Source: Rufibacter roseolus (GTDB taxonomy: Bacteria > Bacteroidota > Bacteroidia > Cytophagales > Hymenobacteraceae). Taken from it: a stretch of DNA of 64,000 bases. Of the stretch, positions 40,103-63,568 are shown piece by piece (the first letter of the stretch is position 1; each line of letters opens with the position of its first letter). The position numbers and the translations under genes are program-made. The stretch is taken from NCBI RefSeq assembly GCF_017916365.1, contig NZ_JAFMSU010000001.1, positions 1,703,028 through 1,767,027 on the forward strand. The letters are read 5' to 3'. The notes below the pieces were generated by a model. The model ran no database searches, was not told the DNA's origin, and saw nothing but the letters and a program-made list of their open reading frames with translations.

Positions 40103-40366
40103 TCGCTTGTTTCTGAAGAGGCTTTTGGGGGTATTGTCTTTCCTGCATTTTTCTAAGAAGAGGCAACGGGCAGCTTTGTAGCTCGTAGTAGGCAATAATT
40201 CAGATTCTACGATATTCGGTGATCTTAATGAATTAAATCTTGTCAGTTGGAGGGCTGTGCCAGGCACTAATTACAAACCCTAACCAGCCTAAAAACACCG
40301 CTACTCAAACCCCCTAATGCCTGACGCTTGCCGTTTACCCGTGAGGCGCAGGCTACGTATGAAACT

Positions 40367-41251
40367 ATGATAGAAGCAGTTAAATTCTGGAACGAACCAA
40401 ACAACAAATCACACTGGGCTTACGAGATTGACCCCGAATGGAAGATTTTCGGGGAAATGGTGAGACTGGCCGCCAAAGCCTGTAAAGCCGAAAAGCCGGA
40501 GATTACCCGCGTGTTAGGAGGCATCTCGCCCATAGACCCGCATTTTATCAAGACTTTAGAACGCCACGGCACCCTGGAAGACCTTGATGCCGTAGCCGTG
40601 CACGGTTTCCCACTGGACTGGAACCTCTGGAACATCAACGAGTGGCCCGATAAAATCGCTGAGATTGAAGCCGTCACCAATTTGCCCGTGTGGGTAACCG
40701 AAGTGGGGATTTCTTCCTTCGGGGCCGAGGAAGTTCAGGAATTTGGGTTGCGCCGTACCGCCGAGTTGTTGATGGGCCGCGTGGACCGCGCTTTCTGGTA
40801 CAGCCTCTATGACCTGCCTCAGGCCTGGGAAGCCACCACGCGCCACCGCGAGGCTGAGGGATCTTCTTATTACCGCCACTTCCACATGGGTCTGCTCAAG
40901 GAAGACGGTACCCCCAAAATCGCCCATAAACATTTCGCTGACTACACCCCTGAGTTCGGGATCTGCCAGTGGTTCCACTTTGAAGACCACCGCCTGGACG
41001 ATGCCGTACAACACCTCCGCAACCTGGGCGTGAAGAAGCTGCGCACCGGTCTGAGCTGGGCCGATTGGCTGCGTCCGGATGCCGAGAAGTGGTTTGACCA
41101 CGTCATGAAGAAGCTGGATGAATTTGACGTGACCGCCACCTTCTGCTTCACCCCAGAGCACAAAGGCGTACAGCCGCACCACACCAGCCCACCCCAGCAT
41201 ATTGAGGAGTTCGCTGATTTCTGCGCCCTTATGATGCGCCGTTACGCCTAG
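40367..41251 (+). CDS. GH-A clan glycosidase with apparently circularly permuted TIM barrel
   Basis: A 294-residue predicted glycoside hydrolase, without signal peptide. The acid/base motif FWNEPN (Glu10) of beta-strand 4 is at the very N-terminus, and the nucleophile motif WVTEVG (Glu112) of strand 7 follows at about 100 residues distance, as in GH39/GH5-type barrels. Strand 8 is AFWYSLYD (143-150). The C-terminal 100 residues then read like strands 1-3 of the same barrel (GICQWFHFEDHRLDDAVQHL, KKLRTGLSWADWL, FDVTATFCFTPEH), ending EEFADFCALMMRRYA, the helix that normally precedes strand 4. All eight strands can thus be found in permuted order in one domain-sized protein. The start is uncertain; a TTG at 40328 adds 13 residues. 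A beta-xylosidase-like role is inference. Confidence 0.72.
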   Translation: MIEAVKFWNEPNNKSHWAYEIDPEWKIFGEMVRLAAKACKAEKPEITRVLGGISPIDPHFIKTLERHGTLEDLDAVAVHGFPLDWNLWNINEWPDKIAEIEAVTNLPVWVTEVGISSFGAEEVQEFGLRRTAELLMGRVDRAFWYSLYDLPQAWEATTRHREAEGSSYYRHFHMGLLKEDGTPKIAHKHFADYTPEFGICQWFHFEDHRLDDAVQHLRNLGVKKLRTGLSWADWLRPDAEKWFDHVMKKLDEFDVTATFCFTPEHKGVQPHHTSPPQHIEEFADFCALMMRRYA

Positions 41252-41357: not shown

Positions 41358-42293
41358 ATGAGCCAGGAAACCCAGGAAGAAACCCCAGATGTTTGGATGC
41401 TGAACATGCGCCGGGGCACGTTTGAAGAAGCTTGGAAGCACAGCGATGCCGTTTTGAAAAAACGCGCCGGAAAACCCTGCTGGCACTGGCCCCGCCACTT
41501 CCAATACGTCTGGGACGGCTCCTCTTTGCAAGGTAAACGGGTGCTGGTGCGCTGCTACCACGGCCTGGGCGACACCATCCAGTTCATCCGGTTCGCGCCG
41601 CTCATCAAAGCCATCGCTAAAGAAGTTATTGTGTGGGCCCAGGCGCCATTGATCCCGCTACTGGAAACCATTCCCGCCATAGATAAGCTCTTGCCCCTGA
41701 ATGACGGTACCCCCGAGGTAGAGTATGACGTGGACGTGGAAATCATGGAGCTAACCCATATCTTCCGGACCACCGTGGACACCATCCCGTCCCAGATTCC
41801 TTACCTCCAGGTAGAGCCCCTGCCGCTTCCCGGCAATCAGGAGAAACTGAACGTAGGCTTGGTCTGGAAACCCGGCGACTGGAATCCGCATCGGTCTATT
41901 CCGTTTGATTTTCTGCGGCCGCTGGCCGAGGTGCCAGGCATCAACCTCTATATCCTCCAGGAGAATGCCGCCAACGCCGGTTGGCAGGGAGGTTTCGGTA
42001 TCCATCCCGGGGAGTTCAGTTTGTATGATTACGGGCGCGTTATCAAAGGTTTGGACCTGCTCCTTACCGTAGATTCCATGCCCGCTCACCTGGCCGGTGC
42101 CCTCAACGTCCCCGTCTGGACCCTGCTTCACGCCAATGCAGACTGGCGCTGGATGGATGACCGCGAAGACAGCCCCTGGTACCCTTCCATGCGCCTCTTC
42201 CGGCAAGAAGTAGCCGATGACTGGGCAGGCGTGATCAACCGGATAGTGGTTGAGCTGGAAAAGCTTACAAAGGAAGTGCAGGTGGCGAAGTAA
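41358..42293 (+). CDS. GT9/GT41-like glycosyltransferase
   Basis: A 311-residue cytoplasmic protein with the GT-B halves of heptosyltransferase/O-GlcNAc-transferase-like enzymes. The acceptor half has VLVRCYHGLGDTIQFIRFAP (61-80), and the donor half has LNVGLVWKPGDWNPHRSIPF and the closing LDLLLTVDSMPAHLAGALNV then PVWTLL, which matches the nucleotide-sugar binding end of GT9. The first 50 residues (DVWMLNMRRGTFEEAWKHSD) look like a single TPR-type helix pair. It should add a sugar to a lipid or glycan; donor and acceptor are unknown. It converges on the pyruvyltransferase pair. Confidence 0.82.
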   Translation: MSQETQEETPDVWMLNMRRGTFEEAWKHSDAVLKKRAGKPCWHWPRHFQYVWDGSSLQGKRVLVRCYHGLGDTIQFIRFAPLIKAIAKEVIVWAQAPLIPLLETIPAIDKLLPLNDGTPEVEYDVDVEIMELTHIFRTTVDTIPSQIPYLQVEPLPLPGNQEKLNVGLVWKPGDWNPHRSIPFDFLRPLAEVPGINLYILQENAANAGWQGGFGIHPGEFSLYDYGRVIKGLDLLLTVDSMPAHLAGALNVPVWTLLHANADWRWMDDREDSPWYPSMRLFRQEVADDWAGVINRIVVELEKLTKEVQVAK

Positions 42294-42356: not shown

Positions 42357-42390
42357 AAAAAAAGCGGAGGGGAAACCCTCCGCTTTTTTT
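42357..42390. terminator. Bidirectional terminator between convergent genes
   Basis: A perfect 15-bp stem (42357-42371 with 42376-42390), loop GAAA, with A- and T-runs as its outer ends. It overlaps the stop codon of the minus-strand gene at 42389 by two bases. A degenerate hairpin-family core lies just before it, at about 42311-42347. Confidence 0.9.
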
Positions 42391-43777
42391 ATTCTCCTTT
42401 CAACTGTTTATACCGGTTCTTTATCTCCCCAAGCTTACCCTGGTGATAGGCAAACCCATGATACGCTGCCAAAGCCATTGCGGCCCAATTGATGTACAGT
42501 TTAGGGGAGTCTAATTGTCGGGCCAGCCTGAACATCTTGTGGCTACCCATGGAAAGGTAATAGCGCATGCGGTAGATGAGCTTGCGCTGGGTAGTGGGGG
42601 TTTTGTCGTCTGGGGTGACGCGTTTGCGGGGTTGTACGCCGCTACGAGGCCAGGTGAGACGGTAAGCCAGACCTTCGCGGCGTTGCCGGAAGCCGGCGGC
42701 CTGGGTCTGCTCCACAAAGCGGGCATCTACCGGCTCCAGTTGCAGGCGCCCTGCCTGGATAGCATTGGTCACCAGTTTGTCTACCAGTGGCGAGCGGACC
42801 ACCACTACGTTCGTGCCGCGGCCATCGGAGGAATACGGTTCCACCCAGGCATCGCCGAAGGAGATATCAGAGGTCTCTGCCACCACGTCATCGCAGTAAT
42901 TGCAGGCCGAGTTCATGTAGAAGCCGGCTCCCCAGTCACCATCAGCCAGGTGCCACCAGTCGCGGTTCACGCTGGAGCCGTCGCGGAGGGTGAGTTTGGC
43001 GTTGTACCAGTTGGCTGGTCGGTTGGGGTCTTTCTGGCGGTACTCTACCCGTTCAACCTGGTCTACCGGCACGTTCATCTGCCAGGCGAAACTCTCCACA
43101 AAACGGGCGCTCTTCATGTGGCCACAGAAAAGCCCCAGGGTGTACTGGATGCGCTCGCGGTACATGGGGTTTTCCTGGCGCAGCAGCTGGATGGCTTTGA
43201 TAAAACACGGAATGCCCACCACGGCGTAGCGGCCCGGCACCTCCCTGATCAAAGAAAGCACCTCAGACAGTTCAATGGGGTAATAGCGTGACTTGGCCCC
43301 CTCCCGGATCTCGGCCTCGGTACGCGCGATGCGGTAGCGGAAGTAACGGCCGTCTTCCTGCGGGTCTTTCGTGGCGATCACGTGGGCCACGCCGTCAATG
43401 AGGCCTTGGCGCATGAGCTCAGTGGCTACCCAGGTAACCATTCCTCCGGAGCTGCCTTGCATCCTGAAATCCTCTTCAGACACGTGGCCCACGTACGCCG
43501 CCTGAAAACGTCCCATGGCATTGTCCAGTATGGGGGCGGTGGGGAAGAGGTGGGCACCCAGGTAATCTTCGTTTCTGGACCCCGGCGAGAACGGGCAGGT
43601 TCTGGTGAAACTAGCCGACTCACGTTTGTACCAGGAGTTAGGGCCCTGGGGTTTCAGTTGGCCGTAGGCGTCAAAGTCCATCTGGGTGTCTGGCAGGTTG
43701 GCCTGGGCCACACAGCTGCCGCAGCCAATGCACAAGCCAGACTTCACAATATCACGGGGGCTCAGCAGGTCTTTCAT
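42389..43777 (-). CDS. F420 hydrogenase/dehydrogenase beta-subunit-like Fe-S protein
   Basis: A 462-residue protein with an N-terminal ferredoxin-like cluster (CIGCGSC near 17-23, plus a further Cys in TRTCPFSPG) and the FrhB/FdhB-type core: MQGSSGGMVTWVATELMRQG, VVGIPCFIKAIQLL, LGLFCGHMKS and CNYCDDVVAETSDISFGDAW. True F420 is not expected in this phylum; homologues in polysaccharide clusters probably use another flavin. They are often paired with polysaccharide pyruvyl transferases, as here. The last 100 residues are basic and less conserved. The start codon overlaps the stop of the upstream gene by 4 nt (ATGA), so translation is coupled. Confidence 0.87.
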   Translation of the reverse strand: MKDLLSPRDIVKSGLCIGCGSCVAQANLPDTQMDFDAYGQLKPQGPNSWYKRESASFTRTCPFSPGSRNEDYLGAHLFPTAPILDNAMGRFQAAYVGHVSEEDFRMQGSSGGMVTWVATELMRQGLIDGVAHVIATKDPQEDGRYFRYRIARTEAEIREGAKSRYYPIELSEVLSLIREVPGRYAVVGIPCFIKAIQLLRQENPMYRERIQYTLGLFCGHMKSARFVESFAWQMNVPVDQVERVEYRQKDPNRPANWYNAKLTLRDGSSVNRDWWHLADGDWGAGFYMNSACNYCDDVVAETSDISFGDAWVEPYSSDGRGTNVVVVRSPLVDKLVTNAIQAGRLQLEPVDARFVEQTQAAGFRQRREGLAYRLTWPRSGVQPRKRVTPDDKTPTTQRKLIYRMRYYLSMGSHKMFRLARQLDSPKLYINWAAMALAAYHGFAYHQGKLGEIKNRYKQLKGE

Positions 43778-44979
43778 GCGTATTGAACTTGTTTTAACGC
43801 CAGCGCCCTATCCAGATACGCATTGGAGGTTTGCCGCAGCTGCTGAATCTTCTGCGTGATCTGCGGGTTCAAAGGGGTACTCAGCAAGGTCTCGTACTGG
43901 GCGTAATCTGAGCCCTCGGGTAGCAGGTGATGCTCGCCGCCTATCTTGGCCATGAGCCCCTGCAGTTTATGCCTACGGTACGGCGATGACTCACACACAA
44001 ACGGTTTGGCATTGCGAAGGGCAAAGACGCAGCCATGGAAAAAATTGGTGGCCACGGCTTCTGCTTTGGCCATGAAATGCGCGAAGTCATGCGGATCTGT
44101 GGTGATCCACTGCTCGTCGGCGAAGTCGTTGCGGTACCCGAAACTGATGAGCGGCAGGTTCCGGCTATCGGCGTACTGCCTGATCTCGCGGGCGAATGAT
44201 TCTGAAAAGTTATGACCGTAGACCGCAATGTAGGGTTTCTGCAGCAACTCGTGGTCACGGTCCTCCGGTATGATGGGGAACTGCAGGCAAGGGTCCAGCA
44301 CCATCTCGGGCTCAAAGCCTAGGGCGTCTTTGATGATGGTTTGGGAATTGGCGTCGCGCACGGAGATGGACTCAAAGTTCCGCAGCTTATCGGCCCAGAA
44401 AGGGTGCATGCCCCAGGAGGCGTCATAATTTCCGAAACTGGCGGCGTACGAGATCAGGTGCTGGGTTTTCAGGCCATCGCCGTAGAACAAGGGGCAGCAG
44501 CCGTACCACGGGTGCGAGAGGTTCCAGACCTCATCACTGCCTACCACCACCACATCGTAGTTTTCCATCTGGCTGGGGTCTTCCAGCGGGAAGCGGGGCG
44601 AAAGGGGCAGGGTATCAAAAACGCGGAAGAACTTCCGAATTTTCTCGCGGTACAATGGGCGGTCAGATGCGGGTACCGGCGTAGGCAACACCGGCTGGAA
44701 AGCGCATTTCCATTCTACCAGGTTTACCCGCTTAGAGTCATGGTCCAGGATCACGGCTTCGTGGCCGCGCGCCTGCAGCCCCTCGGCCAGGCAACGGGCC
44801 TGCCAGTAACTTCCATAATTGATGCAGCGGTGAAAGGTCAGGACCCCGATCTTTAAAACGTTCTTATGTTGTAGGTTCTCCAAAGCTTTTCTGAAATAAG
44901 GGTAGAAGCCGGGCCGGCAGGCTGCGCTGTAGGCACAGCCCACACCCGGGAAATGGTAATTCATGCCAACGGCATACAT
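43774..44979 (-). CDS. Polysaccharide pyruvyl transferase family protein
   Basis: A 401-residue GT-B-like enzyme of the CsaB/WcaK family that transfers pyruvate from PEP, or an analogous group, to a glycan. The family start is KIGVLTFHRCINYGSYWQAR at about 42-61; then come VVVGSDEVWNLSHPWYGC, ISYAASFGNYDASWG, ISVRDANSQTII, DPCLQFP and VATNFFHGCVFAL, all in order. The 40 residues before the family core (including GVGCAYSAACRPGFYPY) are unusual, so the real start may be internal and non-ATG. It is the first gene of a coupled pair with the Fe-S protein at 42389. Confidence 0.87.
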   Translation of the reverse strand: MYAVGMNYHFPGVGCAYSAACRPGFYPYFRKALENLQHKNVLKIGVLTFHRCINYGSYWQARCLAEGLQARGHEAVILDHDSKRVNLVEWKCAFQPVLPTPVPASDRPLYREKIRKFFRVFDTLPLSPRFPLEDPSQMENYDVVVVGSDEVWNLSHPWYGCCPLFYGDGLKTQHLISYAASFGNYDASWGMHPFWADKLRNFESISVRDANSQTIIKDALGFEPEMVLDPCLQFPIIPEDRDHELLQKPYIAVYGHNFSESFAREIRQYADSRNLPLISFGYRNDFADEQWITTDPHDFAHFMAKAEAVATNFFHGCVFALRNAKPFVCESSPYRRHKLQGLMAKIGGEHHLLPEGSDYAQYETLLSTPLNPQITQKIQQLRQTSNAYLDRALALKQVQYA

Positions 44980-45232
44980 TTGGTTTAGGTTATATATTCA
45001 TCTCCTTAAATTGCCACTGGGGCAGCGTGTTTGTCTTAAAGTGCAGAACCTCAAACCAGAAGATTAACCGGGAATAAATGGAGGCAAAAGGCAGGAAGCA
45101 GGGTTACTCAAAGAAAACGGTTTGCGGCTTTAGCCGTTTAAAGACACGGCTAAAATTTTCCTTTGCTTTTTTGCCTTGCATTTCAAAAAACAGGCGCTAA
45201 ACTGCACGCCCGCGCTTTCAAAAACAGACTAC

Positions 45233-45835
45233 ATGACCAAAATTTTATTGATCCGCCACGCCACCACAGACTCAGTGGGCAAACGTTTATCTGGCCGCAC
45301 GCCGGGTGTTTTCCTGAACGAGGAAGGAGTGGCACAGGCGCAGCAGCTGGCCCAAAGATTGGCTAATTTTCCCGTTGACGCGCTTTACAGCAGCCCTCTG
45401 GAGCGCACCCTGCAGACCGCCGATTTCGTTGCCCAGGCGCAGCAGCTGCAAACCATTCCCATGGAGGATTTCCTGGAGATAAATTTCGGGGAGTGGACCA
45501 ATTGCACTTTTGAGGAGCTGAGTGGCGACCAGCAATTTCAACGGTTCAATTCCTTCAGAAGCGTGACCCGCATTCCGGGTGGTGAGCTGATGCTGGAGGC
45601 GCAAGCCCGTGTCATTGCGGGGCTGCAGAAACTTTGTGCGCAGCACCCACACGGAACGGTGGCGGTGGTAAGCCATTCAGATTTGATCAAAGCCGCGGTG
45701 GCCTATTACGCCGGCGTTCATCTGGACATGTTCCAGCGCCTGGAGATCAGTCCGGCCTCAGTGAGCATAATTGAAGTTTACGAAGAAACCGCTCGGATTC
45801 TGCTAATAAATGACACCGGAGAATTAAAACCTTAA
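45233..45835 (+). CDS. Histidine phosphatase (phosphoglycerate mutase-like)
   Basis: A 200-residue branch-1 histidine phosphatase. The catalytic motif is IRHATTDS (Arg8, His9), followed by GRTPGVFLNEEG, ALYSSPLERTLQTADF, the acid in INFGEWTNCTFEEL and the second His in VVSHSDLIK. The ATG at 45233 gives this normal start; a longer frame adds 19 residues from intergenic sequence. The substrate is not visible; members act on sugar phosphates, nucleotides and small phosphoesters. It lies 350 bp before inositol-3-phosphate synthase on the same strand, so action on an inositol phosphate is an attractive but unproved idea. Confidence 0.9.
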   Translation: MTKILLIRHATTDSVGKRLSGRTPGVFLNEEGVAQAQQLAQRLANFPVDALYSSPLERTLQTADFVAQAQQLQTIPMEDFLEINFGEWTNCTFEELSGDQQFQRFNSFRSVTRIPGGELMLEAQARVIAGLQKLCAQHPHGTVAVVSHSDLIKAAVAYYAGVHLDMFQRLEISPASVSIIEVYEETARILLINDTGELKP

Positions 45836-46184: not shown

Positions 46185-47510
46185 ATGCATAATGTCGTAG
46201 AAAAAGCAGAAGGAAAACTAGGTTTGTTGATGCCCGGTTTAGGCGCCGTGGCCACCACCCTCATTGCCGGGGTAGAAGCCGTTAAAAAGGATCTGGCGCA
46301 GCCGGTTGGTTCCCTCACCCAGATGGGAAGCATCAGGTTAGGAAAACGCACCGAGAACCGGTATCCTAAAATCAAAGAGTTTGTTCCGCTGGCTGATCTG
46401 AATGATATTGTTTTCGGGGGCTGGGACGTGTACTCAGACAACGTGTTTGAGGCGGCTATGAAAGCCAAGGTATTGGAGCCCATGATGCTGCACGCCGTGA
46501 AAGCCGAACTGGAAGCCATTAAGCCCATGAAAGCGGTTTTTGACAAGGCCTATATCGCTAACCTGGACGGCGACCACATCAAGGAGGCGGCCACCAAAGC
46601 TGATTTGGCCAAGGCCCTGATGGACGACATCGAGAACTTCAAGGAAGCCAACGACTGCGCCCGCCTGGTGATGGTGTGGTGCGGTTCCACCGAGAAGTAT
46701 ATTGAGGAATCTGAGGTACATCAAAGTATTGAGGTTTTTGAAGCAGGGCTGCAGAACAATGATCCGGCCATCGCGCCATCAATGATCTACGCCTACGCCG
46801 CCATCAAACTGGGCGTGCCGTTCATGAACGGGGCACCTAACCTTACCTGCGATATCCCTGCGCTGATTGAACTTGCCAAGCAAACCGATACCCCTATTGG
46901 AGGTAAGGATTTCAAGACGGGCCAGACCCTGATGAAAACCATCCTGGCCCCGGGCCTGCACGCCCGTGCTTTGGGCGTGAAAGGCTGGTTCTCCTCTAAC
47001 ATCTTAGGTAACCGCGACGGGTTGGTTTTAGATGCCCCTGAGAACTTCAAGACGAAAGAGGTCTCCAAGCTGAGCGTGCTGGACGAGATCTTCCGCCCCG
47101 AGTCCAACCCCGAGTTGTACGGAGATATGTACCACAAAGTACGCATCAACTACTACCCACCGCACGGCGACAACAAAGAAAGCTGGGACAACATCGACAT
47201 TTTCGGATGGTTAGGCTACCAGATGCAGATCAAGATCAACTTCCTGTGCCGCGACTCCATTTTGGCTGCGCCATTGGTGCTTGACCTGGCCCTGTTCAGT
47301 GACCTGGCCAAAAGAGCCGGTATGTCTGGCATCCAAGAATGGTTGTCTTTCTATTTCAAGTCACCTCAGACCGCCGAGGGCCTCAACCCTGAGCACGATA
47401 TTTTCAAGCAATTGATCAAACTGCAGAACACCCTGCGCCACATGATGGGCGAAGACCTCATCACGCACCTAGGCATGGACTATTACCAGGATCTTGTAGA
47501 GGCGATGTAA
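46185..47510 (+). CDS. ino1: Inositol-3-phosphate synthase
   Basis: A 441-residue NAD-dependent enzyme that cyclises glucose 6-phosphate to 1D-myo-inositol 3-phosphate. Family signs are the N-terminal LLMPGLGAVATTLIAGVEAV (14-33, a variant Rossmann loop), FGGWDVYSDN near 77-86, NNDPAIAPSMIYAYAAIKLG, PFMNGAPNLTCDIPAL, GGKDFKTGQTLMKTILAPGL, GWFSSNILGNRDG and KVRINYYPPHGDNKESWDNI then DIFGWLGYQMQIKINF. The whole length is present. In this context it points to an inositol lipid or an inositol-containing glycan; no PI-synthase (CDP-alcohol transferase) lies in the window. Confidence 0.95.
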   Translation: MHNVVEKAEGKLGLLMPGLGAVATTLIAGVEAVKKDLAQPVGSLTQMGSIRLGKRTENRYPKIKEFVPLADLNDIVFGGWDVYSDNVFEAAMKAKVLEPMMLHAVKAELEAIKPMKAVFDKAYIANLDGDHIKEAATKADLAKALMDDIENFKEANDCARLVMVWCGSTEKYIEESEVHQSIEVFEAGLQNNDPAIAPSMIYAYAAIKLGVPFMNGAPNLTCDIPALIELAKQTDTPIGGKDFKTGQTLMKTILAPGLHARALGVKGWFSSNILGNRDGLVLDAPENFKTKEVSKLSVLDEIFRPESNPELYGDMYHKVRINYYPPHGDNKESWDNIDIFGWLGYQMQIKINFLCRDSILAAPLVLDLALFSDLAKRAGMSGIQEWLSFYFKSPQTAEGLNPEHDIFKQLIKLQNTLRHMMGEDLITHLGMDYYQDLVEAM

Positions 47511-48341: not shown

Positions 48342-49808
48342 TCAAGATACTTTCACCACTGCTACTGCTACATCCGTGCGTACTTCTGGGATGGAGAAAC
48401 TGCAATTACCGCCATGCGCTTCAACTTGAAACTGTTCCCGCATGTTGCCTTCCAAGGTGTTCCAGGTGGTAATCTGGTAACAGCCATCTTGCAGGCCAGG
48501 GATCTGCACTTGTATTGTGAGAGCAGAAGCATTGGGATCCATTAAGCGCTTGCGTTGGTACAGGGCATCTTTCCGGAGAAGCCAGACCACGGCCTGCTGG
48601 TCATCGGCGCAGCCAAACACCGCGAAGGAGGGTTTTGAGACCTTGATCTCTTGGTTCAGGTTTTTCCGCCGGAAAGTGGGCCAGTGGATGAGCTCCAGGA
48701 AACCAGTCATGTTCTTCTGGGCTACGCGCATGCCGGGCGTGAGGGTATGCGGATGGCGGTTGGGCCAGCGCATGCCACCGCCGGCCGCCCCAGAGGCCAG
48801 GTGCGCCCATTGGATGTGCCGGAAATACTCATCGTCAAACTCGGGGGCAAGGGTGTGCTTCTTGTCTTTGAACAGGTGAATGGGGCCGTGCTCAGAGTCA
48901 AAGAAAGGGCGGTTGTCGGGGGCGTGTTCCAGGGCCTCGCGTACCAGTTCGCCTACCTTGATGGCCGAGTCTACCGTGTTCTTGGGGTAGTCAATGGTCT
49001 TGGCATCGTAGAAGTGGGTGCTTGCGAAATCAAGCAAGGGGTGCCGGAAAATGGTATCGGCGGTGTCTGGGTGCGTGTGCAGGATAGGCCCGAAGATAGA
49101 CACGGTCTGGGGGTGGGAACGGCCGTAGAGGCGCAGTTCCAGTTCGCGCACGTGCTCGCTCAATTCGGTGGCTACCCTGGAGAAACCCTCTGAATTGTTG
49201 CCCATGTGGGCCGGGTGCATCTCGTTCCAGAGGTCCCAGGCAAAGAGTACACCACTGCTGCCCCAGCGTTCCACCACAAAAGTGAGCCGCGCCTTGATAA
49301 CGGCCATGGTATCTGGGCAGAGGAGCCACTGACCGCGGCCGGCGCAGGGGCCACCCAGGCTTTTGTTGTAAGGGTGGTACTTCCACTTAAGCCACATCCA
49401 GAAGGTGTCATAGGGTGTGAGCAGGATGCGGAGGCCGTACTTAGCGCAGAGTGCGAAAAGATCGTCCCAGAGTTTGACCATACTGGGATTGAACGTGCCT
49501 GCGGGTTTCTCAAAGTAGCGGTGCTTTACCTGGGCGTATTCCAGCATGAGGCGAAGGCAGGTTACGCCGTGCTCTGCGAGATACGCCAGGTATTCTTCCA
49601 CGGCGGCCAGATTCTTCCGGCGGAACAAGCCTTCCAGCTCGGGCCAGGTAATGGCATCGTTCTGGCCCACGGGCGTCCAGGGCTGACCGTCCTCGGTGAT
49701 AAAATAGGGGGCGTCTGGAGCCACTTGGATCCAGGGCAGGGAAGCGATTTTGAGTGGGTTGGAAATCTTAGAAGCAGGAGCAGGTTTTAAGATGGAGGCT
49801 TGACGCAT
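48342..49808 (-). CDS. GH5-like (cellulase fold) glycoside hydrolase
   Basis: A 488-residue GH-A glycosidase in normal strand order. The proton donor is Glu196 in WDLWNEMHP, and the nucleophile is probably Glu306 in FFDSEHGPIH. Early parts (ITEDGQPWTPVGQND, then HGVTCLRLMLEYAQ) match GH5-type mannanase/cellulase-like proteins. A small beta domain at about 400-485 (VVWLLRKDAL, GCYQITTWNTLEG) ends the protein, as in related enzymes. There is no signal peptide, so it should act in the cytoplasm or on an intermediate, which fits a biosynthetic or recycling role better than digestion. Substrate unknown. Confidence 0.85.
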   Translation of the reverse strand: MRQASILKPAPASKISNPLKIASLPWIQVAPDAPYFITEDGQPWTPVGQNDAITWPELEGLFRRKNLAAVEEYLAYLAEHGVTCLRLMLEYAQVKHRYFEKPAGTFNPSMVKLWDDLFALCAKYGLRILLTPYDTFWMWLKWKYHPYNKSLGGPCAGRGQWLLCPDTMAVIKARLTFVVERWGSSGVLFAWDLWNEMHPAHMGNNSEGFSRVATELSEHVRELELRLYGRSHPQTVSIFGPILHTHPDTADTIFRHPLLDFASTHFYDAKTIDYPKNTVDSAIKVGELVREALEHAPDNRPFFDSEHGPIHLFKDKKHTLAPEFDDEYFRHIQWAHLASGAAGGGMRWPNRHPHTLTPGMRVAQKNMTGFLELIHWPTFRRKNLNQEIKVSKPSFAVFGCADDQQAVVWLLRKDALYQRKRLMDPNASALTIQVQIPGLQDGCYQITTWNTLEGNMREQFQVEAHGGNCSFSIPEVRTDVAVAVVKVS

Positions 49809-51406: not shown

Positions 51407-52222
51407 TTAGCGGGTGAGGGTGCGGTTTTTACCTTCCACTTTGGCGGCCACGGCCTCTTGCCAGGCCTGTCCGGTAGCCGAGAGCAGCTCAGAACTGTTC
51501 CAGGTGTGGGTGCTGTTCTGGTTCTCTGGGTCAGGCTCGCAGATGTAGATTTCGTGGTCTGGTTTCTGGGTTACTTTCAGGCCGCAGGAGCGCAGCATGG
51601 CCTCAATGCAGGCGTGGTTGGGCGCCCACCAGTTGGTGACATCGCCGGCCAGTTTATGCTCAATAAAAGCCATTTTAGGGTACCCTTGCTCCAGCATCAC
51701 CTCGCGTTCGTTGAACTCAATATCAGCGGGTATCTCGGCCACTTCCTCGCCGGGCATGGTCAGGGTCTGGAATACCATCAGGCGCGTGGTTTTCTGCGAG
51801 AGAATGTCCAGCGACAACAGCGGATAACGCAGATGATACATCACGCCCATGTACCAGATGAGGTCAAATTTCTCCTGCAGATGAGCCACGTCATACACCT
51901 GCATTTGCCGGAACTCCACCTTGTCATCCAGCCCAAACTGCTGGGCCACCCAGGCGGCTTGCCGCAGGTAATGCGGGTCCACGTCAATGCCCAGCACCGA
52001 GGCGCCTCTCTTGGCCAGTTCCATGGTGTAGAAACCAGCGTTGCAGCCCACGTCCAGCACGCGCCAGCCGCTTAGGTCCTCCGGAATATATTTTTTGATG
52101 TGTTCCCATTTGAAGGACGGGAAATCGCCGAGGCTATGGTTGGGGGCGGTTTGGGTGCCGTCTGGCAGGTGCAGGTTATGAAACCAGGGGCCCAGTTGGG
52201 CTATTTCCTGAGTTAGGTCCAT
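51407..52222 (-). CDS. SAM-dependent methyltransferase (TIGR04290-like)
   Basis: A 271-residue class I methyltransferase. Motif I is WRVLDVGCNAGFYTMELAKR (53-72), followed by GIDVDPHYLRQAAWV, the FDLIWYMGVMYHLRYPLLSL region and ETTLMVFQTL-type strand (seen as KTTRLMVFQTLTMPG). The opening GPWFHNLHLPDGTQTAP and SFKWEHIKKYIPEDLSG look like tRNA-cmo5U-synthase-type (CmoB-like) architecture. I recall a TIGRFAM model (TIGR04290) for such methyltransferases in glycan clusters, but cannot check it here. The substrate is probably an organic acid or sugar; unproved. Confidence 0.82.
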   Translation of the reverse strand: MDLTQEIAQLGPWFHNLHLPDGTQTAPNHSLGDFPSFKWEHIKKYIPEDLSGWRVLDVGCNAGFYTMELAKRGASVLGIDVDPHYLRQAAWVAQQFGLDDKVEFRQMQVYDVAHLQEKFDLIWYMGVMYHLRYPLLSLDILSQKTTRLMVFQTLTMPGEEVAEIPADIEFNEREVMLEQGYPKMAFIEHKLAGDVTNWWAPNHACIEAMLRSCGLKVTQKPDHEIYICEPDPENQNSTHTWNSSELLSATGQAWQEAVAAKVEGKNRTLTR

Positions 52223-57605: not shown

Positions 57606-58733
57606 CTAACTTCCCAACTCTATTTCCTTTGTCTCACTCAGGACTCCAGACTCAGAACTCAGGACTTCCAGAATATAGCTTTCCAGCTCCTGCGCGCGGT
57701 GCGCGGCGGTGTGGTGGGCCAGGACTTTCTGGCGGGCGCGTTCGGCGATGGCTGTGCGTTTGTCTTCCGGTAAATGAATCAGGAAATTAAGTGTGTCCTC
57801 AGCGGAGTAGGAGACTAGGATCTCTTTGTTGAACTCAAACAGCTCATCCAGGCCGTCCCAGTAATCGGAGATGATGGGGGTACCACAGGCGGCGGCTTCA
57901 AAGAGACGCACGCTGGGCGAGTAGCCGGCCTTGATCATATCGGCGCGGGTGATGTTTTGGGTGAAGCGCTGCTGGTTGTAGAATTTGCGGTGCTCAGCGG
58001 GTGGCAGGTGATGGATGTACTCACAGTTCTCGGGCCATTGAATGGAATCTGGGTACTGCGGGCCCGCCACTACGAAGGAGCCCAACGGCCACTCACGGGC
58101 GGCGTCCAGCATGAGTTTCTCCAGCGGCGGCTGACGGTCATCGGAGTAGGTACCCAGGTAGCCTAAGTCCCACACTTTCTCTTCCTGCGGCTCTGGGAAG
58201 TAAAGCTCCGGGTCAAACGAGCAGTACAACGGACGCGCCATAGGTGAACCGAACTCCTTCTCCAGTTTCTCCAGGGTTGGTCCGCCGGTAAACGACAAGT
58301 ACATGTCGTACTGCGGGATTAGGCGCGGGTGCAGGTACTCGTAGTCTTCGCGGGCCAGTTTCGCCAGGGTCACTGGCGTATCGATGTCGTAGAAACCGGT
58401 GACGCCCTGCGCCGTTTGGATGGCCCATTCGCCCACGGCTACTCCCTCGGGTACGTACGAACCTACCAGCACGAAATCAGCGGTGCGCACCTGCTCCGTG
58501 AAGCGGGTCTGCAAATCTTCCAGCGACTGGTACAACTCGGTCTGGCAGTATTCAGGGTTAGGTAAATCACGATTAGAAGCGTACCACGGCACATCGCGCT
58601 CCAGGAACAGGATGTGGTGACCGCGGTTGCGCAACTCGCGCACTAGGCCTCTAAACGTGGTGGCGTGCCCATTTCCCCAACTAGAGGTAATAGACAAGCC
58701 CAGAATGACTATGTTCAATGGTTTTTGACTCAT
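57606..58733 (-). CDS. CgeB-like glycosyltransferase, copy 1
   Basis: A 375-residue GT-B glycosyltransferase of the CgeB type. The N-terminal half starts NIVILGLSITSSWGNGHATT and contains RNRGHHILFLERDVPWYASN; the C-terminal donor half has DLGYLGTYSDDRQPPLEKLM, PAEHRKFYNQQRFTQNITRA, and GYSPSVRLFEAAACGTPIIS, the usual sugar-nucleotide closing motif. The last 20 residues (SSESGVLSETKEIELGS) are encoded by a short direct repeat (ACTCAGGACT at 57636-57645 and 57657-57666) and look like a recent extension. It is the last of three CgeB-like genes on this strand. Confidence 0.87.
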   Translation of the reverse strand: MSQKPLNIVILGLSITSSWGNGHATTFRGLVRELRNRGHHILFLERDVPWYASNRDLPNPEYCQTELYQSLEDLQTRFTEQVRTADFVLVGSYVPEGVAVGEWAIQTAQGVTGFYDIDTPVTLAKLAREDYEYLHPRLIPQYDMYLSFTGGPTLEKLEKEFGSPMARPLYCSFDPELYFPEPQEEKVWDLGYLGTYSDDRQPPLEKLMLDAAREWPLGSFVVAGPQYPDSIQWPENCEYIHHLPPAEHRKFYNQQRFTQNITRADMIKAGYSPSVRLFEAAACGTPIISDYWDGLDELFEFNKEILVSYSAEDTLNFLIHLPEDKRTAIAERARQKVLAHHTAAHRAQELESYILEVLSSESGVLSETKEIELGS

Positions 58734-58782
58734 GTGGAAGATGTTAGTATCTAGATGTTAGATGCTAGACTTTTATTTTTCA

Positions 58783-58982
58783 CTGGCGCGAGCGTCCCGC
58801 TCGTGTCCGCACGCTTTCCAAAGGATGTTTGATTCAAACACTCCTGTCATCTTGGAAATACCTTATGGGCGAACTTTAAAAGCATTAATGAAACGCTACT
58901 ACCGTTTGCTCACAAGGTCCTTTCAGGATGACAAAAAGGTGAACTAGAATGCGTGCGGACACGAGCGGGACGCTCGCGCCAG
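58783..58982. repeat. Element with perfect 32-bp terminal inverted repeats and nested element
   Basis: Arms 58783-58814 and 58951-58982 are exact reverse complements (start CTGGCGCGAGCGTCCCGCTC), 136 bp apart. Inside, about 58852-58933, is a copy of the TGTCATC-type repeat also seen at 20037 and 47534, so one repeat has inserted into, or been captured by, another. No transposase is present. It separates CgeB copies 1 and 2. Confidence 0.88.
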
Positions 58983-58993
58983 CGGCTCAGCTA

Positions 58994-59031
58994 TGTTCTG
59001 GGGCTGATTTCTGAAAATCAGCCCCAGAACA
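58994..59031. repeat. Perfect 17-bp hairpin, 4-nt loop (intergenic hairpin family)
   Basis: Arms 58994-59010 and 59015-59031 are exact reverse complements around the loop CTGA. It lies 10 nt after the stop codon of CgeB copy 2 and next to the larger element at 58783. Confidence 0.9.
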
Positions 59032-59040
59032 GAAATCAGG

Positions 59041-60168
59041 TTAAGACACCAAAGCGTCTGCCGAGGAAGGAGCAGCCGTAGTGGTGCGTGGAGTGGTCAA
59101 AAGCAGTTGCTCCAGTTCATCGGCGCGGTGGTCATAGGTGTGTTTGGCCAGTACTTTTTGGTAGGCGGCTTCGCCGATGGCTTTGGCGCGCTCTGGCGTT
59201 AAACCTTGCAGTAGCGTAGCGACTTCAGCTCCGTCTTTGGCTACCAGAATTTCAGTCTCGGGTTCGAAGAAGAAGTCAATGCCTTCCCAGTAATCAGTGA
59301 TGATGCAGGCGCCAGCACCGGCGGCTTCAAACACGCGGGTGGCCGGGGAGAAGCCGTAACGGGCCATGCTTTCGCGGCTGATGTTCAGGACGGCTTTAGG
59401 CGTGCAGTTGAAGGCGTTGTGCTCTTTGGTGTACACGTGGCCGATGTAGTTCACGTTCGCGCTCATGGGTTTGTCGCCCCAGCCGCTGCCGCCAATGATG
59501 AACTGCTGCTCGGGTAATTTGGCGGCCACGTCTAGGAAGAACTGCTCTACACGAGCTTCGCGGTCAGGGAGGCGGTTGCCTAAGAAGGCGAGGTCGCATT
59601 GGAAACGCTCCTCGGGCTCTACTGGGTAATGTGTGGCGGTGTCCAAAGCATTGTAGATAGGAACACACTTCTTCGCGCCTAATTTCGCGTACGCGTTGAT
59701 GACCGGGTCTCCGCCGCCGTAGGTCAGAATGAGGTCATATTGCGGAACATGGGCTCTGAATGGGTCGGCGGGGTCGTTCTCTACGCGGTCCAGGGTGGCG
59801 GGTGCGTCAACGTCCCAGAAAATCACGAGGCAGTTCTGGCTTTGTAGTTTCAGCACTTCGGCTTCGAGCAACTCGTCAAAGACACCTACGCCGCTGGCTT
59901 TCACCACCACATCGGCCGAGGCCGCATCTTCCAAGGCTTTATACACGGCTTCCTCGGTGGCCGGATACACGACTACTTTGGCGTACTCGGGGTCCGGAAT
60001 GTCGCGGTTTTCCTGGCGCTGGTAGGCATCAGGCTCGTAGAAAGTGACCTGGTGGCCACGGTCATGCAGCGCCCGCACGATACCGCGGTAGTAGGTGGCG
60101 GCACCGTTCCAGTACGCGGAAACCAAACTAGAACCGAAGAAGGCGATGTTGAGCTTTTTATTCTGCAT
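59041..60168 (-). CDS. CgeB-like glycosyltransferase, copy 2
   Basis: A 375-residue paralogue of the gene at 57606. It starts NIAFFGSSLVSAYWNGAATY, then GIVRALHDRGHQVTFYEPDA; the donor half has DLAFLGNRLPDREARVEQFF, FIIGGSGWGD, VLNISRESMARYGFSPATRV and FEAAGAGACIITDYWEG. Both nucleotide and acceptor halves are complete. Its start codon lies within the end of copy 3 (11-nt overlap, 60158-60168), so the two are translationally coupled. Sugar donor unknown. Confidence 0.88.
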   Translation of the reverse strand: MQNKKLNIAFFGSSLVSAYWNGAATYYRGIVRALHDRGHQVTFYEPDAYQRQENRDIPDPEYAKVVVYPATEEAVYKALEDAASADVVVKASGVGVFDELLEAEVLKLQSQNCLVIFWDVDAPATLDRVENDPADPFRAHVPQYDLILTYGGGDPVINAYAKLGAKKCVPIYNALDTATHYPVEPEERFQCDLAFLGNRLPDREARVEQFFLDVAAKLPEQQFIIGGSGWGDKPMSANVNYIGHVYTKEHNAFNCTPKAVLNISRESMARYGFSPATRVFEAAGAGACIITDYWEGIDFFFEPETEILVAKDGAEVATLLQGLTPERAKAIGEAAYQKVLAKHTYDHRADELEQLLLTTPRTTTAAPSSADALVS

Positions 60169-61297
60169 GGGTCACAGGAGATTTTGAGGATGGATAAATT
60201 TTTTCGGGCGCGATGCCCAGTTCTTCGCAGATTTCCTCCAGCTCGTTCACGCGGTGCGAGCAGGAGTGTCTGCGGTTGATGGTGCGCAGGCCGTCAGCCA
60301 CCATGTCCTGGGTGCGCCGGGTGTCTTGCAGTACGCTTTGCAGGTGTTTTTTCATTTCGGCACCGTTTTTAGCGACCAGGAAATCTTCGCCGGGCGTGAA
60401 CAGGTTCTCGGCATCTTCCCAAGGCGCGGTAATCAACGGAATACCGCAGGCCAGCGCCTCAAACGGACGGATAGTTGGAATACCAGGCAGCGCCTCTACG
60501 TATGGTCTCCGCGGTACGTGCACCGTCACTTTGTACTTGGCGAACACCTCAGGGGCTTTGTAATTGGGCAGCCACTCACCGTATTCAATTCCGGCCTCAG
60601 CCAGTGATTTAATGGCGTGGTCTGGGTAGCGTACGCCGTACACCTTGGCTTTCAGGCCGAGTTCTTTCACGGGGTTCAGCAGGAATTCGTGCAACTCGGC
60701 GGTGCGTTCTTCGTCGCCCCAGTTGCCAATCCAAACCAAATCACCTTCTTTCTCGGTGGAGGTGCGCGGATAGAAAATGCGGGTATCGGCGGCTTCGTGC
60801 CAGGTCCAGGCTTTCTTTGTCCAGCCTTCGTTCAGGTACAGTTCTTTGATGACATTCCCGAAGGCCAGCACGCCGTCATAGTGGCTGAGGTCATAGGCGG
60901 CCATGCTCTCGCGCTCGGTTACGGCGCGGTGGTGGGTGTCATGGAACAGCAGGCGGTAGTTGTTTTTGCTGCGGTGCTCGCCCACCAGACGTACCAGGTC
61001 ATGGTCGTTCCATTCGTGCACCAACACCAAATCGGCACCGGCCAGCACCTCGTCTAAATTGAGGGTATCCAGTTCGTAGAAATTGGTGTCCAGGCCCGGG
61101 TAGTATTGGTGCAGTTCCTCAATTTTCTCCTCGCCGTACTGCGAGATGAGGTTGCTAAGGCTCCAGCCGTCTTTGGGTTCGTAAACCTGCACGTCATGGC
61201 CACGGCTCTTAAGTTCCTGCACGATGCCGCGTAGGAAGTGGGCGTTGCCGTGGTTCCAGTCTGAGAGCAGGGAGTGGTAGAATAATACCAGTTTCAT
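60158..61297 (-). CDS. CgeB-like glycosyltransferase, copy 3
   Basis: A 379-residue member of the same family, more divergent. It starts KLVLFYHSLLSDWNHGNAHF and LKSRGHDVQVYEPKDGWSLS; the donor half has DLVWIGNWGDEERTAELHEF, PEVFAKYKVTVHVPRRPYVE and IPTIRPFEALACGIPLITAP. The shared residue pattern SDWNHGNAHF versus SAYWNGAATY and SSWGNGHATT across the three copies marks a common acceptor-side motif. The three genes probably build one glycan by successive transfers. Confidence 0.87.
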   Translation of the reverse strand: MKLVLFYHSLLSDWNHGNAHFLRGIVQELKSRGHDVQVYEPKDGWSLSNLISQYGEEKIEELHQYYPGLDTNFYELDTLNLDEVLAGADLVLVHEWNDHDLVRLVGEHRSKNNYRLLFHDTHHRAVTERESMAAYDLSHYDGVLAFGNVIKELYLNEGWTKKAWTWHEAADTRIFYPRTSTEKEGDLVWIGNWGDEERTAELHEFLLNPVKELGLKAKVYGVRYPDHAIKSLAEAGIEYGEWLPNYKAPEVFAKYKVTVHVPRRPYVEALPGIPTIRPFEALACGIPLITAPWEDAENLFTPGEDFLVAKNGAEMKKHLQSVLQDTRRTQDMVADGLRTINRRHSCSHRVNELEEICEELGIAPEKIYPSSKSPVTHAE

Positions 61298-61370
61298 AGT
61301 TTTTGGTTAGATGCTAGTAGTTGGAGGTTAGATACTAGACTTATTTGATTCTTTCATTTTACACGCATTC

Positions 61371-61392
61371 CGTCCCCCTTCAAAGGGGGACG
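61371..61392. repeat. Solo copy of the CCCCCTTCAAAGGGGG repeat end
   Basis: A 22-bp near-palindrome equal to the outer half of the element ends at 8334, 48101 and 63676, without the GTAGGGGGATGA inner part or a partner arm. It lies in the 110-bp gap between the GT4 and CgeB copy 3 genes. Confidence 0.75.
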
Positions 61393-61407
61393 AAGGAGAG
61401 GTTGGAT

Positions 61408-62532
61408 TTACAGCGTCTCCACCTGATCAGGCGCTTTGGGTTTCACGCGAGTGGGCAGGGTGGCGTAGGCTTGCAGGTACTCTTGGGCCATGAGCGCGGT
61501 GGTGTAGTCCTGAGCTTTCTTCACCGCCCGACAGGCCATGATGTTGCGGAGGAATTCATCGTCAATGAACTTATTGATGACGGTGGTGAGGCCTTCCACA
61601 TCGTTGGTGTCCACGTACTCCGCCGAGGTGCCCCAGATTTCCTTGAGGCTGTTGATCTTGCCCAGCACCAAGGCGCAGCCCGAGAAAGCGGCTTCCAGAA
61701 TAGACAACCCGAACGGCTCATACTTGGCGGGCAGCACGTACAACGAGGCGCGGGAAAGCCAATCGGCTACTTCGCGCTGGGAGAGCTTGCCCAGAAAATG
61801 CACGTTCTTGAATAGCTTGCTGTCGCCGGTGGCCGGATGCACGGCATCGCCGGCGATGTAAATGGGCCAGTCCACGGCATCGGCTACCTGGGTGAGCAGG
61901 GCGATGTTTTTGGCTTCGTCCCACACGCGGCCCATGCTGAAGATGAACGGCTCCTTGCGCCCGAAGTGGAAGGCATGTGGGTCGCGGCCGTTGTTTATGA
62001 CCTGTTTTTGGGAAAAGGTGCCGTAAACGGTTTCCGCTTCCTGAAGCATGGCCTCAGTGGGAGCAATCACCAAATCGGCGGCGTGCAGTCCATCGCGCAC
62101 GCGCTCAAAGTAGTAGTTTCTGTCGGCGGGGGCGTTCTCGCCTTTCATGGCGCGCCACCAAGTCTGCACGCAGGAATGGATGACCATGAGCACCGGTTTG
62201 TTCCAGGGCAGATGGCCTTGGCAGAAGTTGTTCAGGTGGATGAGGTCGGGGTTGAGCTGTTCGTTCAGTTCCAGCAGCCATTGGCCCGCCAGGTCTACTT
62301 CGGTCCAGGGATTGTCCATCCATTCCAGCTGATATTCGCTTTCGTACACGGTCACGTTGGTGAGCGCCGCCAGTTCCTGCCGTTGCTGTAGGGTGATGGC
62401 CGCGCCCATGGTGGCGAGGTAAAAGTGCACGTTGTAAGGCGCCATCGCGCGGATGAGCTCCAGACTGTAGGTCCAAACCCCGCCCACGCTGTCGGTGGTC
62501 ATGAGTACGCGCCGATGCGGTTTATCTACCAT
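61408..62532 (-). CDS. GT4-family glycosyltransferase
   Basis: A 374-residue GT-B enzyme of family 4. The N-terminal half has VLMTTDSVGGVWTYSLELIR (a glycine-rich start) and PDLIHLNNFCQGHLPW. The donor half has FIFSMGRVWDEAKNIALLTQ, HFLGKLSQREVADWLSRASL, then YVLPAKYEPFGLSILEAAFS with the E-x7-E motif of GT4 retaining enzymes. It should move a sugar from a nucleotide donor with retention. Its start overlaps the end of the Gfo/Idh gene by 11 nt. Confidence 0.92.
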   Translation of the reverse strand: MVDKPHRRVLMTTDSVGGVWTYSLELIRAMAPYNVHFYLATMGAAITLQQRQELAALTNVTVYESEYQLEWMDNPWTEVDLAGQWLLELNEQLNPDLIHLNNFCQGHLPWNKPVLMVIHSCVQTWWRAMKGENAPADRNYYFERVRDGLHAADLVIAPTEAMLQEAETVYGTFSQKQVINNGRDPHAFHFGRKEPFIFSMGRVWDEAKNIALLTQVADAVDWPIYIAGDAVHPATGDSKLFKNVHFLGKLSQREVADWLSRASLYVLPAKYEPFGLSILEAAFSGCALVLGKINSLKEIWGTSAEYVDTNDVEGLTTVINKFIDDEFLRNIMACRAVKKAQDYTTALMAQEYLQAYATLPTRVKPKAPDQVETL

Positions 62533-63568
62533 AAATTCTGTCTAGTACCTCTGCTACTTTCACAAACTGCTCGGCTTCTTCGCTGAACTTCTCGCCGTTG
62601 GCGACGCGCTGCGCCCATTCCACACCGGCCCGTCCGCCCCAGGCATCTGGCGGCGAAACCAAGGTTTCGGTGTTGGTGCCCCAGAAGCGCTCGGCCACGA
62701 AGTCATAGAAAGAGCCGTTCACGTTTTTGAAGGCCGCGCCGCCTTTGGTGCCGTAGAAAGTGGCGCTGATGATGGCTTCCTGACCGGCGGGCAAGTTCCA
62801 GGAACAAGTCAGCTGCACGTGCGGACCCGTCGCTAACTGGATGCTGGCAGTGGCGTAATCCTCCACGGCATCTGCAGAAGACGTCAGGCGTTTCCCTTTA
62901 GAGAACAGGCTGCTGGTTACGCTTTCCACTTGGGGGAAGTCTAAGGTCCAGAGTGCCAAGTCCACCAAATGCACGCCCAGGTCAATCACGCAGCCACCGC
63001 CGGAGAGTTTGGGGTCATAGAACCAGGGTTTATCGGGGCCATAAGCATTATGGAATACCAGCTCCACGCCGTAGATATCGCCTAGTTCGCCGGATTTCAC
63101 CAGGTCATACACTTTGCGCATGGCCACGGTGCTGCGGTAAGAGAGGTCCACACCCAAGAGCGTATCGGCTTTTCGGGCGGCTTCTACTACGCGCCGGGTT
63201 TCCTCGGCAAAACGGCCCAAGGGTTTCTGGCAGAAAACGGCTTTCCCGCTTTCCAGGGCCTGAATGGATTGGTCGGCATGGAACGCACTAGGGGTGGCAA
63301 TGACTACGCCGTCTATTTCATCAGTCAGTAAGTCTTCAATGGTGTTGCCCACTTTGGCGGCCGGAGCGGTTTTTTGGGCTTCCTCTACGTTTTGCGGGGC
63401 TGGGTCTACCACGGCGGTTACCTCGGCTACGCCGGCATTGGCGATGGCTTCCATGCGGTTACGGCCTATCCAGCCGATGCCCAGGAAGCCTAATTTCAAA
63501 GTATCTGTAGAAGCAACGTTGGGGGCTGCTGCTTCTTGGATGGGTTCTAGTAAAGTGTCTTCAGCCAT
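62522..63568 (-). CDS. Gfo/Idh/MocA family oxidoreductase
   Basis: A 348-residue NAD(P)-dependent sugar or inositol dehydrogenase-like protein. The Rossmann start is LGFLGIGWIGRNRMEAIANA, followed by VVIATPSAFHADQSIQALES and FCQKPLGRFAEETRRVVEAA with the conserved Lys-Pro. GVDLSYRSTVAMRKVYDLVK and the YGPDKPWFYDPKLSGGGCVI then DLGVHLVDLALWTLDFP segment include the His expected for catalysis. It probably oxidises or epimerises a sugar or cyclitol in the glycan pathway. The first 15 residues are an acidic extension. Confidence 0.92.
   Translation of the reverse strand: MAEDTLLEPIQEAAAPNVASTDTLKLGFLGIGWIGRNRMEAIANAGVAEVTAVVDPAPQNVEEAQKTAPAAKVGNTIEDLLTDEIDGVVIATPSAFHADQSIQALESGKAVFCQKPLGRFAEETRRVVEAARKADTLLGVDLSYRSTVAMRKVYDLVKSGELGDIYGVELVFHNAYGPDKPWFYDPKLSGGGCVIDLGVHLVDLALWTLDFPQVESVTSSLFSKGKRLTSSADAVEDYATASIQLATGPHVQLTCSWNLPAGQEAIISATFYGTKGGAAFKNVNGSFYDFVAERFWGTNTETLVSPPDAWGGRAGVEWAQRVANGEKFSEEAEQFVKVAEVLDRIYGR

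Follow-up and report, generated by a model that had tools for sequence, protein, structure and literature searches.

A probable natural circular permutant of a clan GH-A glycosidase barrel, encoded in one locus with a normal-order paralogue in Rufibacter roseolus

PslG of Pseudomonas aeruginosa is described as a GH39 retaining endo-β-glucanase (PMC11912335) whose gene belongs to the Psl polysaccharide operon (PMC10485009). The permutations of (β/α)8 glycosidases that we found on record are few. The GH70 glucansucrases are described as having a naturally permuted (β/α)8 barrel with the motif order II-III-IV-I (PMC5216370), and permuted domains are described for MalS of GH13_19 (PMC10223318). 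Outside the glycosidases, transaldolase and class I aldolase have been compared as a non-sequential pair of TIM barrels (PMC2213659). Elsewhere, 54 permuted domain instances are set aside as false positives (PMC4432964), the sole mention of permutation in the passages of PMC10485009 is the title of a reference about the esterase domain of PgaB, and PMC13105402 deals with designed barrels. Here we describe a 294-residue GH-A-type protein (P0001), encoded at 40367..41251 on the forward strand of the window (the whole stretch of 64,000 nucleotides that was analyzed), which differs from the closest of these systems. The GH70 enzymes are large, multidomain proteins of clan GH-H with a U-fold and α-glucan chemistry, whereas the window protein is a minimal single domain. 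Motif I of GH70 sits on β3, so the two cuts are similarly placed; transaldolase is a permuted aldolase and no glycosidase, while the partner of the window protein is a recognizable paralogue in its own locus. No description of a permuted GH-A barrel was found among the open-access papers listed, at the level of titles and the starts of abstracts, PMC8250049 included; on this open-access scope, we treat its undescribed status as provisional.

A search of the window's own genome at E ≤ 1 returned one further relative, a protein of 685 residues in which a normal-order GH domain is followed by an NAD-dependent epimerase. Its gene lies on the reverse strand, ∼0.8 kb beyond the window end (G000:C1:1767873-1769930, corresponding to L084:1874-3931). 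The two proteins have barrel, motifs, and locus in common, but the paralogue runs in the order β1–β8 and, in this one protein, carries the epimerase at its C-terminus. Residues 5–192 of the window protein match residues 124–304 of the paralogue, and residues 188–290 match residues 10–114, that is, two pieces in reversed order (E 1.3e-29 and 3.7e-12). The first block, β4–α8 (residues 1–193, 40367..40945, forward strand), aligns with the C-terminal portion of the GH domain in the paralogue, and the second, β1–α3 (residues 194–294, 40946..41248, forward strand), aligns with the N-terminal portion. The original prediction had read the C-terminal third as strands 1–3, and it indeed aligns to β1–β3 both of the paralogue and of PslG when the order is rotated.

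We assembled the best 80 of the 538 confirmed stretches in a genome-collection search (69–99% identity) and compared, by hhalign, the rotated profile of the resulting 81 permuted proteins with a profile of 17 normal-order homologues. The latter are 17 of 23 flagged rows: L130 (which duplicates L113 in genome and gene), L135 (its match divided between two frames), and L109 (a short, misparsed frame) were dropped, and L089–L091 were used as the outgroup; the more distant relatives L088, L092, L128, and L129, flagged as "other", were excluded. The scan of 49 rotations in steps of six, followed by a fine scan, gave a single dominant peak at rotation 193, with a score of 411 over 282 columns that cover residues 1–294, vs a score of 259 over 209 columns without rotation. 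In the pairwise comparison of the window protein with its paralogue, the score rises from 296 in the native order to 424 in the rotated order, where there are 94 identities over 301 alignment columns; the identity of permuted and normal-order forms in one locus is ∼30–37%. The motifs WNEPNN, LGG.SPIDP, HGFP, W.TE.G, QWF, and LRTG.SW match across both orders. The seam RRYA|MIEAVKFWNEPNN is gapless against the paralogue, with one single-residue gap eight residues earlier, within α3, and the same seam is gapless against PslG. By sequence and model, the new ends of the permuted chain fall between α3 and β4, at a point where the alignments run without a gap, and the old ends of the parent (after α8 and before β1) are joined by a linker of ∼3 residues, α8 being placed at 185–193 and β1 at 197–200. 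We regard the permutation of the barrel order as genuine with near certainty.

The comparison with PslG follows the same pattern. A PDB search in the native order finds PslG at E 1.1e-3, a match carried by the piece at residues 4–157; the β1–3 piece lies in swapped order and alone is not significant (3.9 bits). The family profile in native order likewise matches PslG over residues 3–153 only (E 2.9e-6). Once the window protein is rotated, PslG is matched in one piece, 7–257, at E 1.8e-9. By sequence similarity, PslG (GH39) is the closest solved relative; its WNEPN and W.TE.G motifs align with those of the window protein and it too is a polysaccharide-operon gene, but it is of normal order, periplasmic, and longer. 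The GH39 likeness is seen in this similarity, whereas no GH39 model was matched in Pfam or NCBIfam at E ≤ 10 in the native order or in Pfam at E ≤ 1 in the rotated order. The only GH-model match of the window protein is Pfam Glyco_hydro_cc (22.2 bits vs a cut-off of 21), which is barely improved by rotation, to 23.0 bits, and no GH13 or GH70 model is listed for it in Pfam or NCBIfam at E ≤ 10. Because the rotated Pfam scan is also without a GH39 model, curated GH models are distant from the family in either order.

An AlphaFold2 model was built from 69 of the 81 permuted sequences (window plus loci; 12 near-copies were dropped), a shallow alignment at 69–96% identity to the query, and has a mean pLDDT of 88.9 and a pTM of 0.88. 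It contains eight strands (4–7, 47–50, 75–80, 108–113, 142–145, 197–200, 224–230, and 254–260), each followed by a helix, the last at 279–293; two loops, 12–15 and 157–167, are of low confidence (pLDDT < 50). The predicted strands run as β4–β8 and then β1–β3 of the parent, and the barrel is complete in the model, in agreement with the earlier proposal that all eight strands fit into 294 residues. We predict from this model that the window protein is a complete (β/α)8 barrel of GH-A type, in which the N-terminal β4 would pack beside the C-terminal β3 to give a normal active site. Foldseek, a sequential method, gave query TM-scores of at most 0.48 among the 50 PDB matches listed, of which four reached E ≤ 0.001 (two designed proteins, a GH10 xylanase, and a β-glucuronidase); PslG was not among the 50 listed. 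A weak full-length match is expected of a permuted order in a sequential search and is not proof of permutation. Since sequential searches see the permuted protein dimly, with a marginal Pfam score and a low Foldseek TM-score, more permuted GH-A enzymes may lie hidden.

Judged by the traits of clan GH-A, the strand order β1 to β8 is absent, its place being taken by β4–8, β1–3, while both catalytic signatures are present. The predicted acid/base, E10 (40394..40396, forward strand; WNEPNN), follows N9 at the end of β4, which is strand 4–7 of the model. The predicted nucleophile, E112 (40700..40702, forward strand; WVTEVG), ends strand 108–113, the parent β7. The positions first assigned to the two motifs, FWNEPN from residue 7 and WVTEVG at 109–114, were both correct. 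N9-E10 and E112 are invariant in 81/81 permuted proteins, and the normal-order relatives preserve both Glu in 16 of 17 cases and the Asn-Glu pair in 15 of 17. Five comparisons with close relatives gave dN/dS values of 0.013–0.10, from which the permuted family is judged to be under purifying selection. Sequence and model together show that the permuted protein has lost none of the eight strands and neither catalytic Glu. The enzyme is a putative retaining β-glycosidase or transglycosidase, which would act by the two-Glu mechanism on a β-linked sugar, by hydrolysis or transfer. By inspection, its chain starts straight into β4, and a cytoplasmic location is inferred because the chain begins at this core strand. 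In sum, the protein is probably a GH39/PslG-like glycosidase barrel of clan GH-A that was circularly permuted in nature and is intact, active catalysis included.

The alternative that fares best against this reading is a folded but catalytically idle barrel that would serve the glycosyltransferase cluster in binding, scaffolding, or regulation and keep its glutamates for ligand binding. The activity of the permuted family is a prediction from sequence, and the locus looks biosynthetic. In addition, a normal-order homologue in a Skermanella genome (L127; G267, C20:14000-17500) has apparently lost both catalytic Glu, and the wider family may therefore include inactive proteins; the L127 alignment is less sure because it is a long-branch row, and the same genome also carries the permuted form. 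The invariance of the Asn-Glu pair and of the second Glu in all 81 permuted proteins, together with the low dN/dS in all five comparisons, speaks against an idle barrel, which we consider unlikely. As a separate observation, the loss in L127 beside a permuted gene hints at functional replacement.

The boundaries of the open reading frame are relevant to a second alternative. At the position of M1, immediately in front of β4, 80/80 homologous loci have an ATG or GTG codon, and the frame 5′ of the start is common, as judged by eye, only to near relatives. A longer N-terminus from a TTG at 40328 was rejected because this upstream frame is unconserved beyond them. The homologues terminate at or past an ...RY motif, which reads RRYA in the window protein, some with a variable tail, and have total lengths of 293–348 residues. 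In 32 of the 80 loci, the permuted gene is preceded on its own strand by a TIGR04290-like methyltransferase gene, whose stop lies within 18 nt of the permuted-GH start in 25 of these 32; in 16, the stop runs into the start codon, with an overlap of 4 or 8 nt. That the gene is a remnant, truncated or fused, or an artefact of the assembly could be suspected from the 294 residues of the window protein vs the 685 of the normal-order paralogue (epimerase domain included). This reading is contradicted by the identical start in 80/80 loci, many of other phyla, by the alignment, after rotation, of residues 1–294 with a single stretch of that profile of normal-order paralogues, and by purifying selection, and it is extremely improbable. 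Nor did the possibility, raised in the original prediction, that normal-order homologues would expose the gene as a remnant materialize, the normal-order homologue being a separate, longer gene in the locus.

The pairwise rotation scans were consistent throughout: the optimum lies at rotation 186–195 (step 3) in 81/81 permuted proteins, with gains of 104–147. Normal-order controls (n = 6) had their optimum at most 15 residues from zero rotation with gains of 0–10, and a permuted-vs-permuted control (n = 1) had its optimum at rotation 0. Shuffled sequences never scored above 66 unrotated (n = 300) or above 49 across rotations (n = 60). That the apparent rotation reflects the internal pseudosymmetry of TIM barrels, which make up 35.1% of the non-sequential structure alignments in one survey dataset (PMC2213659), and not descent by permutation is hardly credible, as it is contradicted by the dominance of the peak at 193 over the half-barrel offset (a low 218 at rotation 42), by matches of specific motifs beyond the fold alone, and by control pairs without rotation.

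The permuted gene is not limited to Hymenobacteraceae. A search for homologues with the same order in that family had been suggested, and the full permuted form is present in 21 of its 120 genomes, yet the gene also occurs in several phyla. Isolates named in the titles of the 80 loci belong to Bacteroidota, Pseudomonadota, and Myxococcota, and the metagenome bins among them are labeled Acidobacteria, Verrucomicrobia, Chloroflexi, Nitrospirae, Armatimonadetes, and others. A GH match occurs in 43 of the 120 Hymenobacteraceae genomes; 41 of these have the normal-order form (seen as two reversed pieces), with 19 genomes carrying both forms, 22 the normal-order form only, and 2 just the permuted form (one of these two genomes is 78% complete). 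Among the normal-order frames in this family, 40 of 41 have at least 686 residues and one has 354. Across 148 Bacteroidota genomes drawn evenly there are six matches, with the permuted form solely in the window genome. All 27 genomes picked for holding the permuted gene show the permuted form, and a normal-order relative is also present in three of them, one being degenerate. The class of Skermanella (240 genomes) yields nine matches: three permuted only, five normal-order only, and one with both, the last being the Skermanella genome at the center of the sample. Plasmid records gave 146 matches, of which 141 cover at least 80% of the protein, and all 15 annotated proteins among the 20 plasmid records listed are called "beta-xylosidase". 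Relatives of the GH–epimerase fusion, where annotated in the plasmid records listed, are named epimerase or SDR only, and their GH half therefore goes unnamed.

A tree was computed from 27 of the 81 permuted sequences (rotated back), the 17 normal-order relatives, and three outgroup rows. Each group falls on one side of a branch (support 74/87, 99/96, and 100/100, with 74/87 for the permuted rows), and the normal-order relatives form a separate clade on a long branch. The permuted group has a single origin in 71% of 200 bootstrap trees, in a bootstrap that had not settled; a single origin is compatible with the data and moderately supported. The permuted gene may have arisen in one event, through duplication or fusion and retrimming of a normal-order gene, and may later have been spread by horizontal transfer. 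We incline, by a modest degree, to the view that it is the first natural permutant in clan GH-A, derived from a single ancient event and now a widely transferred family that in many lineages occurs by itself or takes the place of its normal-order sister within one cytoplasmic oligosaccharide pathway. In favor of replacement, 8 of the 9 matching genomes in the sample of the Skermanella class carry only one form, and the sole genome with both has a normal-order copy that is apparently degenerate; simple replacement is opposed by the 19 of 43 GH-bearing Hymenobacteraceae genomes that hold both. What the locus offers is a minimal permuted barrel and a normal-order paralogue side by side, with clean seams and with pairs in many genomes. 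With such a matched pair, the folding, stability, catalysis, and evolutionary route of the permutation are directly testable, making it a natural experiment on how a protein fold withstands cutting and rejoining.

The permuted GH is linked to a TIGR04290 oligosaccharide-type cluster. The window methyltransferase of this family (51407..52222, reverse strand; 355.6 bits vs a cut-off of 300) lies 10 kb from the permuted gene, on the opposite strand. Within Hymenobacteraceae, where the occurrence of TIGR04290 without a GH was checked, the model is matched in 43 of 120 genomes, 42 of which are among the 43 that bear a GH of either order. The two exceptions are G199, where a permuted GH occurs but TIGR04290 is not matched, and G174, in which a TIGR04290 frame with an internal TAG (C18:47844-48524) occurs and neither GH form was matched, a possible case of cluster decay. 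TIGR04290 is also present in 35/35 other GH-bearing genomes (30 permuted, 5 normal-order only) and in 0/14 control genomes. By analogy with PslG in the Psl operon, the permuted GH may serve a sugar pathway, its target being perhaps an intermediate on the way to the oligosaccharide of this cluster; the name of the TIGR04295 model, B12_rSAM_oligo, fits an oligosaccharide product. In the open-access literature, nothing was found under TIGR04290, TIGR04295, the label "rhizo-twelve", or guessed S. meliloti locus tags. The permuted GH provides an enzymatic handle on this uncharacterized, widespread cluster.

Beyond the permuted gene, the window encodes a GT9/heptosyltransferase-like protein (41358..42293, forward; Pfam 22.2 bits vs a cut-off of 22), with a similar gene in 43 of the 80 loci, an FrhB/FdhB-domain protein (42389..43777, reverse; 31 of 80) and a polysaccharide pyruvyl transferase family protein (43774..44979, reverse; 31 of 80), a histidine phosphatase family protein with an uncertain start (45176..45835, forward; 56 of 80), and a myo-inositol-1-phosphate synthase (46185..47510, forward). 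Four glycosyltransferases (57606-58733, 59041-60168, 60158-61297, and 61408-62532, together 57606..62532) and a Gfo/Idh/MocA oxidoreductase (62522..63568) follow on the reverse strand. Neighbors both here and at other loci are glycosyltransferases, inositol-phosphate synthase, histidine phosphatase, polysaccharide pyruvyl transferase, the FrhB protein, epimerases, and Gfo/Idh and Zn-dehydrogenases, with a TIGR04295 B12 radical SAM protein in some loci. The window also encodes P0002 (488 residues; 48342..49808, reverse), which has WNE and DSEHG motifs, a subthreshold match to Pfam Apiosidase (16.9 bits, cut-off 26.5), and no NCBIfam match at E ≤ 0.001; its PDB matches are a DUF5060-domain protein (E 2e-5) and a GH5 mannanase (E 0.16). 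P0002 looks like another GH-A barrel and would be the third GH-A-like protein in the cluster.

TIGR04290-type clusters were also seen on large plasmids (L086, L087, and L131–L135). Some of these plasmid clusters lie near stress or DNA-repair genes, namely, Ku and LigD (L131), DUF1003 (L086 and L087), and OsmC (L087).
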